From: Bacteroidota bacterium
GTDB taxonomy: Bacteria > Bacteroidota > Bacteroidia > Bacteroidales > F082
Assembly (NCBI GenBank): GCA_024279935.1
Contig: JAJRQZ010000067.1
Location: forward strand, 1-64,000
DNA length: 64,000 bases
Reading direction: 5' to 3'
This document shows positions 24,092 to 27,732 of the stretch, one piece after another (position 1 is the stretch's first letter; the number at the start of each line of letters is the position of its first letter). A program made the translations under genes and the position numbers. The notes beneath the pieces were generated by a model, which was not told the DNA's origin, searched no databases, and was given only the letters and a program-made list of their open reading frames with translations.

Positions 24092-25393
24092 GCCATTTGG
24101 TAGGCATCGCTGACCCAGAGCCCAAGGTCTTTGCAAGAGACACTTTTTTGTTCAAATCCTGAATTATTAATTAGATATTAGATTTTTTTAGGGCGACGGA
24201 AACATTATTCATGTCTTCCCAATTCTTGAAAAGCTTTTTTAGCTCGTGGTACATATCTGCCTGATACATCAAGTTTGCGGATTGCAATACAAATATCATT
24301 TGCAAAACCCCATTGCTATAGTTATAAACAGCATCTACCGCAGCAGTATTATCAGACATGATATATCTTTGGTTTTCAGGCATTTCAACAAGTTCGTACC
24401 CTTTTGGTACAACAATACTAAACCTGAAAGCCCGTTTAAACGAATAATTAAATTCGACCGGGAAATTCCTGTTTTGGCTTGTTAAAGGGTTTTCTGTGAG
24501 CATTTTAAACATAGCGGAGGGTTCTAATATCAGCAAAGAATCTAATTGAACTACCGCATTTAAAGGTTTACAGTTAAACGATGCTATGAAGCTTTTGCCC
24601 AGGTCTTCATAATTAAAAGCCTTAAAACCGCTAACTTCAAAATCAGCATTATCAACTTCAAAATAATAATCGATGAATGAGTTGTCGTAATCGGCATAAG
24701 CGTTCCTGGCCGTCAAAGAAAAATAGCCGTTAAGTTTTAAGTTTACGGTATTAATAAGCTGACCATCAACAATTTCAGAATTAATAATAATAGTTTGCGA
24801 GCTTGGCTTTTTTTCGGGCACATTTATAAGCCGGGGGTTCACCATGTCAACGGGGAATATTTTGGAGCCGATAAGGTTTACCGGGTTACGTTTGTAGTAT
24901 TGGTTTTTAATGCCGGCATGCAATACGTATTCCGCGCCTTTGTTTTCGACATAGCAAACCGTCGTATTAAATTGGGCGATAAAAGGATAATTAGGGTTTA
25001 CCCATCCATTGTCGCGCGTACTGGCAAAAGCAGGTTTTGCGTCAACACCATATTCGCGTAAAAGCCGTGTCAGGAAAAGATTTATTTCGGCCGAAGATGC
25101 CTCGTTTTCATTAAACAGCTGGTTTAGCTTTCTTTCAGGAATTCTTTTATAAAGCCCATTCCAGTTAAACTTGTTTTTTACATAGTTGAAACAAATCTTT
25201 ATTTTCTCATCCGTTGTATTTACGTCAGGCAAACTGTTTTTTATTTCCTCTAATTGTGCTGAGCACCTAAAAAGTTGCTTTCCATAGCTGGGGTCTTTTG
25301 TATATCTCTTGGCTAGTTCCCAGGTACTGATAATTGTCTTGTATTTTCCTCTGCGCTTATCGGTTTGAATATGGTGCGTGCTGCATTTTGAAA

Positions 25394-25487
25394 CGAATAT
25401 TTTTCAGGTTGTGACAATCTTTATTTTGTGTATTAACTTTCATATTTACAACTAATTGCGGCATGCACTATATTTTTTGTTAGGCGG
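25394..25487 (-). other. candidate attC-like recombination site at cassette end
   Basis: On the minus strand this begins with the R''-like box GCCTAAC right after the ATPase gene and ends at the cassette boundary G. When joined to the cassette start (TTAGGCGG) it forms outer arms CCGCCTAAC...GTTAGGCGG that are perfectly complementary over 9 bp. Inside, only short complementarity is evident, for example AGTTGT against ACAACCT with one extrahelical base. Spacing between the core boxes and candidate inner boxes is longer than in classical attC sites, so a fold prediction is needed. Confidence 0.45.
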
Positions 25488-25505
25488 TCGTCATTCTGTT
25501 CTTTT

Positions 25506-26726
25506 TTAATTATTTTTATTGTCTAATATCCAGTCGATTGCATTTAGCTGTTTCACTCCGTTATGGTTTCCTGTCTCGTAATCCATTGTAATAAGTAATC
25601 TTTCGTTAAAATCCCGGATTTTATTAAACGGAGCGAGTTCTCGTTCAAGTGTTTTTGGATCTTTTACTGTGTATGCCACTTGAATATATTGTGTATAACC
25701 ATCTTTGTTTCGAATAACGAAATCGACTTCCAGATTATCTGTTTTTCCTATCCAAATTTGATAATTACGACGAAGTAATTCAAGAAATATCACATTTTCA
25801 AGTAAATGCCCCGCATCTGCAGTAAGTTCTTTCCCAAGTAATGCATAACGCAAACCCAAATCCACAAGATAATATTTTTCTTGCGTTGCCAAATGTTGTT
25901 TTCCTTTTATATCGTATCGATTTATTTTATAAAAAAGATAAGATTCCACAAGCGTATCAATATACCTTGATACTGTTTTATTGTCAATTTTTTTCCCATT
26001 GGCAGTAAGAACTTTTGCAATATTTCTGGCAGAAACTCTTGAACCGATACTATCAATCAGAAAATTAACGACTTCGTTATAAGATGTCTCATAATATATT
26101 GTATGCCTTTTTTGTATGTCATTTTCATATATGTTTTGAAAAAGGGATTTTAGATATTCGTAAGCATAACTTTCTCCTGACTCAATAAATCCGACAGCTT
26201 CCGGAAATCCTCCTATTCGCATATAATTGGCAAAGGCTCGGTCGGGAATTGCTGTTTCGCCTGTAAATTCCAAGTATTCGGCAAACGAGAATGGTAAAAT
26301 ATTAATTTCGTATGCTCTGCCTGTAAGTATAGTTGCTAATTCACTTGATAGAAGATAAGCGTTAGAACCTGTAACATATAAATCTATATTTTGAGTAACA
26401 TATAATCCTTCAAGCAGTTTTTCAAATTCAGGGATATTTTGAACTTCGTCAATGAAAACATAGTTCATTACACTTTCTTGTAATAGAGCTTCAATATAAT
26501 CGTAAATTTCTTTCCAATTTTCTTCAGCAAGAAAGCGAAATTCGGGTAAGTCCATATTTATGGAAATAATAGAAGCATTCGGATTTTTTTCCTTTAACAG
26601 TTCTTGAAATTGTATTAGTAAAGTCGATTTTCCCGAGCGACGAACACCTGTTACAACTTTTATAAAGTTTTTGTCTTTTAGAACAAGAAGTTTGTCAAGT
26701 AATTTTTTTCTTAAAATTTTAGACAT
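25506..26726 (-). CDS. AAA ATPase with DUF4143 domain (cassette cargo)
   Basis: A 406-residue ATPase. Walker A is GVRRSGKST (residues 27-35). Walker B YVFIDEVQN is near residue 95, and the sensor segment LYVTGSNAYLLSSELATIL follows. The C-terminal half is the DUF4143 domain, with a winged-helix part (SRYIDTLVESYLFYKINRYD) and a restriction-endonuclease-like core (NLEVDFVIRNKDGYTQYIQV, where D and the following Q/E positions resemble PD-(D/E)xK residues). Such ATPases are abundant in bacteria and archaea and are often found as isolated, mobile-looking genes, but their function is unsettled. The coding sequence is intact and has its own promoter, unlike its broken host gene. A second, unrelated-subfamily relic of this family lies at 155-388. 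Confidence 0.9.
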   Translation of the reverse strand: MSKILRKKLLDKLLVLKDKNFIKVVTGVRRSGKSTLLIQFQELLKEKNPNASIISINMDLPEFRFLAEENWKEIYDYIEALLQESVMNYVFIDEVQNIPEFEKLLEGLYVTQNIDLYVTGSNAYLLSSELATILTGRAYEINILPFSFAEYLEFTGETAIPDRAFANYMRIGGFPEAVGFIESGESYAYEYLKSLFQNIYENDIQKRHTIYYETSYNEVVNFLIDSIGSRVSARNIAKVLTANGKKIDNKTVSRYIDTLVESYLFYKINRYDIKGKQHLATQEKYYLVDLGLRYALLGKELTADAGHLLENVIFLELLRRNYQIWIGKTDNLEVDFVIRNKDGYTQYIQVAYTVKDPKTLERELAPFNKIRDFNERLLITMDYETGNHNGVKQLNAIDWILDNKNN

Positions 26727-26747
26727 ATAATCATCTTTTTAATACTG

Positions 26748-26777
26748 CAAAGATAATATAATTCCTCAAAGTTCCAA
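26748..26777 (-). promoter_or_regulatory. promoter of the cassette ATPase
   Basis: On the minus strand TTG (26777-26775), a 19-nt spacer and TATCTTTG (26755-26748) give a full match to the Bacteroidota TTG-N19-TAnnTTTG promoter, 22 nt before the ATG at 26726. It lies inside the inserted segment, so the cargo does not depend on an outside promoter. Confidence 0.7.
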
Positions 26778-26799
26778 TATCTATCGTGTTTGAGGAATT
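26760..26799. promoter_or_regulatory. 11-bp perfect inverted repeat over the ATPase promoter
   Basis: AATTCCTCAAA (26760-26770) and TTTGAGGAATT (26789-26799) are perfect inverse complements separated by 18 bp. One arm falls between the -33 and -7 elements of the ATPase promoter and the other is just upstream of -33. This is a plausible operator for a dimeric regulator, or a structure formed in the extruded cassette strand. Confidence 0.5.
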
Positions 26800-27732
26800 A
26801 GTGCTCTTTGATTTGACGTTCTGTTTGATGCCGCCTAACGTAATATCTGTTCAATTGCAGCATCAATCCTATTCTGTAATTATCCATTGTTGAAACATAA
26901 GGCTGCCATTTCATGGCCGGGATGTATTCCAGCACGAATTTATTCGTTTTAGTTTTATACTTTATGAATTGCGGGCTTGTAATACTAGTTCCGATGGGCT
27001 TTAATTTCGTCTTCACCAAGCCTGTGGTTATAATTGCATAAGAATCCGTCTCTTTGAACGCAAACCTGTATTCGCTATGCAGACATGGTAGTGTATGCTG
27101 GAAATACAATTTTCTCGCAAGCAACGAAAATTCGCCGACTTCGGTGAGGGTATATTCGATTATACTCCCCGTTTTAACCCCCGGGATGGAGAAAACAAGT
27201 TTGTTTTTTTTAACGAGCTCACTGGCATCCAACAGATGGATATCCTCCTTTTGAAGATCTGTTGTTGTAATGCTGCAGTATGATTCCAGGAAATATGAAC
27301 TGGCTTTGACCCTTAAAATACCGCTTCCTTCACCCGTGACCCAAAAAGAACCATATTTTCCGCTCATGTTTTCCAGCATATCCGACGAATTTGATTTCTT
27401 CATGGAGCGGAACCAATACTCCACGTTGGCGTGTGAGAGCCCCTTTTTGTCGAGTATCAGTATTCTTCGGTGAATCACCGTTCTGGTTTGAAGATAATTC
27501 CCATAAACACCTGAGAATTCCTGTCCGTAATCACAAAGTATAACCGCCCCGGTATTTTTATCAAACTCAGGGTGATCATTGATGTCGAAAGCAAAATCGG
27601 ATGCTGTCAGCTCACCGAACTCCATCGGAGGCGGGTCTTTTTTTTGCTAGCGCATAAGTAGCAGATAATAAGATGATTACGATTGCAATAATTGTTCCTG
27701 GATTAATATGATCTTTCATAGCGAGTTTTTTT

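Follow-up and report, generated by a model that had tools for sequence, protein, structure and literature searches.

A gene cassette at a secondary site in a Bacteroidota gene and a candidate second class of integrons with HARP-domain tyrosine recombinases

The window analysed here (64,000 nucleotides, positions 1 to 64,000 of contig JAJRQZ010000067.1 from a Bacteroidota bacterium) contains an insert that is probably, at roughly 85%, an integron cassette that reached a secondary GNT site of the attG type through an integron integrase of a second kind. Judging from the sequences, the enzyme responsible is most likely the Bacteroidota-type HARP recombinase, which is found on contig C116 in the window's genome. 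The cassette ends, the empty site, the attC family with its covariation and strand asymmetry, and the arrays next to recombinase genes are observed, and the position of attI is predicted.

Results

Borders of the insert and its empty site

The insert occupies positions 25,361-26,838 on the minus strand (1478 bp) and splits a DUF3857-type host gene. When it was searched as DNA against the window's own genome, its attC-like end was matched five more times on other contigs, and the homology with these five copies continues past 25,394 to 25,361, where the repeat ends with CCATATTCAAACCG followed by TT or AT. The first-pass annotation had placed the far end at the GTT of 25,392-25,394, giving an insert of 1445 bp, but this border at 25,394 is ruled out by the other copies together with the empty site, and the true end at 25,361 lies 33 bp further out. 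The GTT sits within the conserved repeat, and the 33 bases that had been taken for host sequence (protein SKCSTHHIQT) belong to attC. The in-frame join LQLNRYY-V-SKCSTHH was thus wrong, as SKCSTHHIQT is the tail of an attC of about 126 bp.

For the empty site, the flanks were joined without 25,361-26,838 and used as a protein query. It turned out that a genome of the same genus (G010, locus L182) carries the uninterrupted host gene, an open frame of 692 codons whose DNA is 84% identical across the junction TATTAC/T-G^ATAAGCG. Because this uncut gene aligns straight through the junction, the insert measures 1478 bp, a target-site duplication is absent and the target is G^AT, not the GTT proposed earlier, with the codons in frame as Tyr-Tyr-Asp-Lys and the correct host join being ...LNRYY-D-KRRGKYK.... 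The N-terminal part of the host gene (26,839-27,625, minus strand), recognised by its ORF, a domain match and the empty-site alignment, ends ...LNRYY, and the C-terminal part (24,171-25,360, minus strand) resumes in the same alignment with (D)KRRGKYKTIISTWEL.... The interruption of a host gene by an insert starting TTAGGCGG at 26,838 is confirmed by the ORFs and the empty site.

The insertion has the features of the attG type, namely a GNT/GWT target outside an array and no duplication; GNT or GWTMW is the consensus of the secondary sites of IntI1 (PMC4618277). As in the attG insertions of integron cassettes (Loot et al. 2024, as cited in PMC12444791) and at IntI1 secondary sites, a single cassette lies at a GNT outside an array, whereas the present case is natural, comes from Bacteroidota, lies within a host gene and presumably involves a non-IntI enzyme.

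Anatomy of the cassette

The whole cassette (25,361-26,838, minus strand) reads TTAGGCGG...gene...attC...ACCG, with its ends defined by the G010 empty site and by the attC end common to the other copies. Its gene (25,506-26,726, minus strand) is intact, as had been annotated, and encodes an ATPase of 406 aa with AAA_14 and DUF4143 domains (Pfam E 1.7e-32 and 5e-21). This single gene has the orientation of array genes and stops just before attC, and CCGCCTAAC does follow its stop codon. A promoter had also been assigned to the insert; a promoter-like match is present, but it is no better than in shuffled sequence.

The attC core (25,359-25,484, minus strand), which runs from CCTAAC to CCG plus AT, the final two bases being host, was detected by the models R1 and R2, and the refined model R2 gives it 116 bits and E 2.5e-24, a value that is only roughly calibrated, as are the E-values of the model in general. 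It is the only significant attC match in the window. Once the cassette is circular, the R''-side arm TGACGACCGCCTAAC (25,479-25,493, minus strand) pairs with the bases that open the same cassette, and the R'-side arm at the cassette start (26,825-26,839, minus strand), identified from sequence and from folding of the circular form, consists of a first G from the host followed by TTAGGCGGCATCA. The cassette ends are accordingly of integron type: GTTAGGCGG and CCGCCTAAC are complementary, TT follows the G, and attC lies at the end. The R boxes GCCTAAC/GTTAGGC fit RYYYAAC/GTTRRRY, while many attCs of the family (CACAAC, GCTAAC) retain just AAC/GTT and their mutual complementarity.

In the circular form, the bottom strand of the window's cassette folds with -27.6 kcal/mol (z -6.1; 0 of 200 shuffled sequences equally stable) and the top strand with -19.3 kcal/mol (z -3.2). 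With the earlier ends, the same fold check had given z -0.4 for the flank alone and a moderate z -2.4 for the joined R arms, and the "weak inner arms" noted at that stage are an artefact of the misplaced end. After correction of the border, there is strong support for reading the insert as an integron-type cassette that ends in an attC and occupies a secondary site in a host gene.

A family of folded attC sites

A covariance model built from six attC copies of the window's own genome found about 30 sites there, 28 of these with E-values no worse than about 2e-6, and at least one site in 63 of 100 family genomes. The sites are about 126 bp long plus the outer arms. Among 111 distinct sites, 85.8% of the stem cells are paired, versus 66.9% in shuffled and 24-38% in slid alignments, with 344 versus 108 double-sided changes. 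Mismatches of the stem on the gene strand are A.C, that is, G.T pairs on the opposite strand. Together with this covariation and the z-scores, the bottom strand is more stable than the top strand in all 71 tested cassettes of the complete genome G002, which is what is seen in an imperfect hairpin favouring the bottom strand.

By ORF inspection, the own-genome cassettes on contigs C37, C63 and C82 (loci L018, L019 and L020) encode a Fic protein and toxin-antitoxin pairs of the RelE/HigA kind, similar to the contents of sedentary integrons.

A long cassette array in a relative

The complete genome of a relative, G002, contains 77 attCs from 1,944,376 to about 2,032,180 (about 88 kb), and 74 of them point one way, the other three being inverted together (at L086:9627-12629). 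In all 71 testable cassettes, the three bases that follow GTT are complementary to the three that precede AAC in the same cassette, while they complement the box of the neighbouring cassette in only 14 of 69. Such own-end complementarity, read from the sequences, would be the circle-closing signature of integron cassettes. It usually extends over at least 6 bases, and it is also found in the window's genome and at loci of other orders.

The G002 cassettes have a median length of about 0.9 kb, and of 56 longest ORFs, 50 are encoded on the array strand, most of them stopping about 15 bp before AAC. The contents include reverse transcriptases, Fic, HNH, caspase, PemK, AbiJ, SIR2 and TIR proteins. 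One array cassette encodes an AAA_14/DUF4143 ATPase, the same domain pair as in the window. A gene-less unit of 518 bp occurs about 20 times among the cassettes, at places spread over 1,949,700-2,024,400 (L082-L087). In the superintegrons of Vibrio, cassettes that carry no gene but have promoter activity are known. Besides, single attCs, all in array orientation, lie about 180 kb from the array (L088:5176, 9318 and 14645), as dispersed cassettes.

The idea that the insert is a transposon, a miniature inverted-repeat element or a structured-RNA repeat merely resembling integron ends is scarcely credible on these data. The copies are scattered through the genome and the inserted gene is unusual as cassette cargo, which would suit such an element, but the insert has neither a target duplication nor a transposase gene, the cassette ends covary with their own attC boxes (71 of 71) and the better folding strand is the bottom, non-transcribed one (71 of 71). 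The head-to-tail array contradicts it as well.

A tyrosine recombinase beside the arrays

A tyrosine recombinase of 387 aa is encoded directly before the G002 array, and the first cassette starts about 43 bp after its stop with GTTATGCCC, matching GGGCATAAC of the first attC. The same recombinase family adjoins attCs in G009, G060, G010 and G001, and an array next to the recombinase gene is seen in G002, G001, G009 and G010 and at the loci L102, L110, L118 and L144. In the window's genome, the member on contig C116 lies at the contig end and no array is attached there; a genome of the same genus shows the recombinase and attC together. In 10 of 12 cases from draft genomes, the contig breaks off no more than 950 bp from the 3' side of the recombinase gene, which would be expected with a repeat array behind it.

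A scan of named genomes with the alignment of the recombinase family gave 80 loci, at which 38 of 40 attC matches of the refined model are downstream of the recombinase and on the same strand. The combination of recombinase, adjacent attI-like site and array occurs in Flavobacteriaceae, Cyclobacteriaceae, Sphingobacteriales and Bacteroidales. In 7 of 9 loci tested, the first cassette is predicted to start 37-303 bp beyond the stop codon of the recombinase, often at ...ATATAACGA^GTT, and the site just 3' of the recombinase gene is a candidate attI. At one Flavobacteriaceae locus, the attCs (L134:88-215 and 1562-1690) are upstream of the recombinase gene and on the strand opposite to it, a classical divergent layout unlike that of the other loci. 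Another locus (L119) has two tandem HARP-type recombinase genes on a contig labelled Undinarchaeales archaeon, by contamination or transfer.

For 26 genomes searched whole, attC sites were found in 13 of 14 Bacteroidota genomes with the recombinase and in 0 of 12 controls from outside the phylum; at least one attC is present in 93 of 198 Bacteroidota genomes. Within the family and outside the attC-free genus g14, the co-occurrence of enzyme and attC is modest (p about 0.03), partly because draft assemblies break at arrays. The enzyme occurs without attC matches in three genomes (G053, G054 and G058), and attCs without a detected enzyme in three others (G034, G048 and G062).

Two other sources of the movement in the window's genome were set aside, namely a tyrosine recombinase on contig C130 (L010), which adjoins an IS91-like transposase gene, and the remaining tyrosine recombinases, which are Xer-like. 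Xer enzymes are able to mobilise dif-bearing elements, and Xer-type proteins are found in the window's genome; on this basis the housekeeping XerC/XerD might move the cassettes, with the repeats as dif-like sites. We regard this as highly improbable, as the sites are folded structures of about 126 bp with single GTT/AAC boxes and strand asymmetry, and the arrays adjoin a separate, non-Xer recombinase.

The recombinase differs from canonical IntI

At the curated cut-off for IntI (TIGR02249, 265 bits), no IntI was found in 149 family genomes. The check for an intI gene in the window's own genome likewise gave only sub-threshold tyrosine recombinases, including the member on contig C116, and the G002 enzyme reaches 206.8 bits, below 265. 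The unseen integrase that had been assumed as the mover is hence absent as an IntI above the cut-off among these 149 genomes, while the arrays adjoin a different tyrosine recombinase instead. One genome (G073, L098:1020-2072) holds a near-cut-off IntI with 258.7 of 265 bits; this genome has 6% contamination, and the gene is possibly a contaminant or part of a second integron type.

That IntI also bears on another explanation, in which the insert is an ordinary cassette, a canonical IntI acted in trans from another replicon or a past host, and the recombinase beside the arrays is a bystander. The cassette anatomy is that of a classical integron and IntI1 is known to use secondary GNT sites (PMC4618277), both of which agree with an action in trans. 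Nevertheless, 63 of 100 family genomes have such attCs, yet none of the 149 reaches the IntI cut-off, and the HARP-type recombinase repeatedly abuts an array and a cassette-start site, so that we consider a trans-acting IntI improbable and continue with the recombinase beside the arrays as the preferred candidate.

The IntI-specific domain near patch III is absent from this recombinase, as indicated by alignment to IntI4 and by motif spacing. The alignment of the G002 enzyme to IntI4 breaks at IntI4 residues 183-247, a segment corresponding to the IntI-specific domain, so that enzymes of the G002 type lack it, and the spacing from GKG to HxLRH is 64-66 residues in the new enzymes versus 106 in IntI. 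In the tree, the IntI sequences form their own clade (100/99) with the new enzymes outside, and a sister relation to IntI is not settled by it. In sequence and fold, the nearest catalytic domains are those of XerA/XerC-like recombinases (PDB 5hxy and 4a8e; NCBIfam NF040815, "site-specific tyrosine recombinase/integron integrase"), whose matched solved chains are without a HARP-like domain.

The recombinase combines one to three copies of a DUF5710/HARP-like domain with a SAM-like core-binding domain and a catalytic domain that has no IntI-specific insertion. Pfam DUF5710 matches the extra N-terminal domain in 7 of 12 members, and the HARP match is weak. Since matches to the catalytic domain prevail in a fold search with the whole enzyme, the N-terminal domain was modelled alone (pLDDT 88), and its best PDB neighbours are the HARP domain of SMARCAL1 and XPB. 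The top Foldseek match, the SMARCAL1 HARP substrate-recognition domain (4o66), has a probability of 0.87 and E 0.04, above 0.001, a distant similarity of the predicted fold. This weak likeness hints at the kind of domain that recognises branched or damaged DNA.

Discussion

Putting these data together, we propose that the cassette would be excised as a circle, and that the bottom strand of attC would fold into a long hairpin with the AAC/GTT boxes, an inner stem and a conserved apical part of about 70 nt, the outer arms of the hairpin being the cassette's own two ends. The tyrosine recombinase would then join the folded single strand to a double-stranded target, usually attI just downstream of its own gene and here the secondary G^AT site in the DUF3857 gene, which the cassette splits. 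We infer that a HARP-type enzyme catalyses this reaction and that its substrate is single-stranded, namely the folded bottom strand. The HARP-like domain may help to recognise the hairpin or its junction of single and double strand.

The system resembles the sedentary chromosomal integrons of the Vibrio type (VCR-type attC) in many respects, such as a long array in one orientation next to a tyrosine recombinase, cassettes with one gene each, a folded attC of about 126 bp with bottom-strand bias, G^TT junctions, AAC/GTT boxes with complementarity within each cassette, gene-less cassettes, and toxin-antitoxin and defence genes. It differs from IntI integrons (IntI4, PDB 2a3v) in its recombinase, which is without the IntI-specific domain, bears an N-terminal domain of the DUF5710/HARP-like kind and branches outside the IntI clade; the recombinase gene is also read in the direction of the array.

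In the IntegronFinder 2.0 survey, Bacteroidetes had only In0 elements plus one complete integron, in Salinibacter ruber (PMC9024848). Integron searches rely on the IntI-specific domain, which makes Bacteroidota look almost devoid of complete integrons; the present cassette system of superintegron size, with sites in about half of the sampled Bacteroidota genomes, lies beside a recombinase that escapes this criterion. A large integron family across Bacteroidota has apparently been undescribed so far: the open-access papers searched contained no earlier description of such a system, the priority being uncertain as preprints and most subscription journals lie outside this scope.

We think it rather likely that Bacteroidota hold a phylum-wide second class of integrons, with HARP-domain tyrosine recombinases lacking the IntI-specific domain, in which a HARP-like module took over, or evolved in parallel, the capture of folded single-stranded attC. 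The additional domain has been described as unique to IntI and necessary (Messier and Roy 2001, as quoted in PMC9668308). If the present reading is true, the domain called necessary for integron activity would not be the sole way to recombine a folded attC, and the recombinase would offer a tool with possibly new specificity. It would also bring to light a large stock of cassettes with defence and toxin-antitoxin genes, and the way in which a structure-specific recombinase reads the hairpin would become testable.
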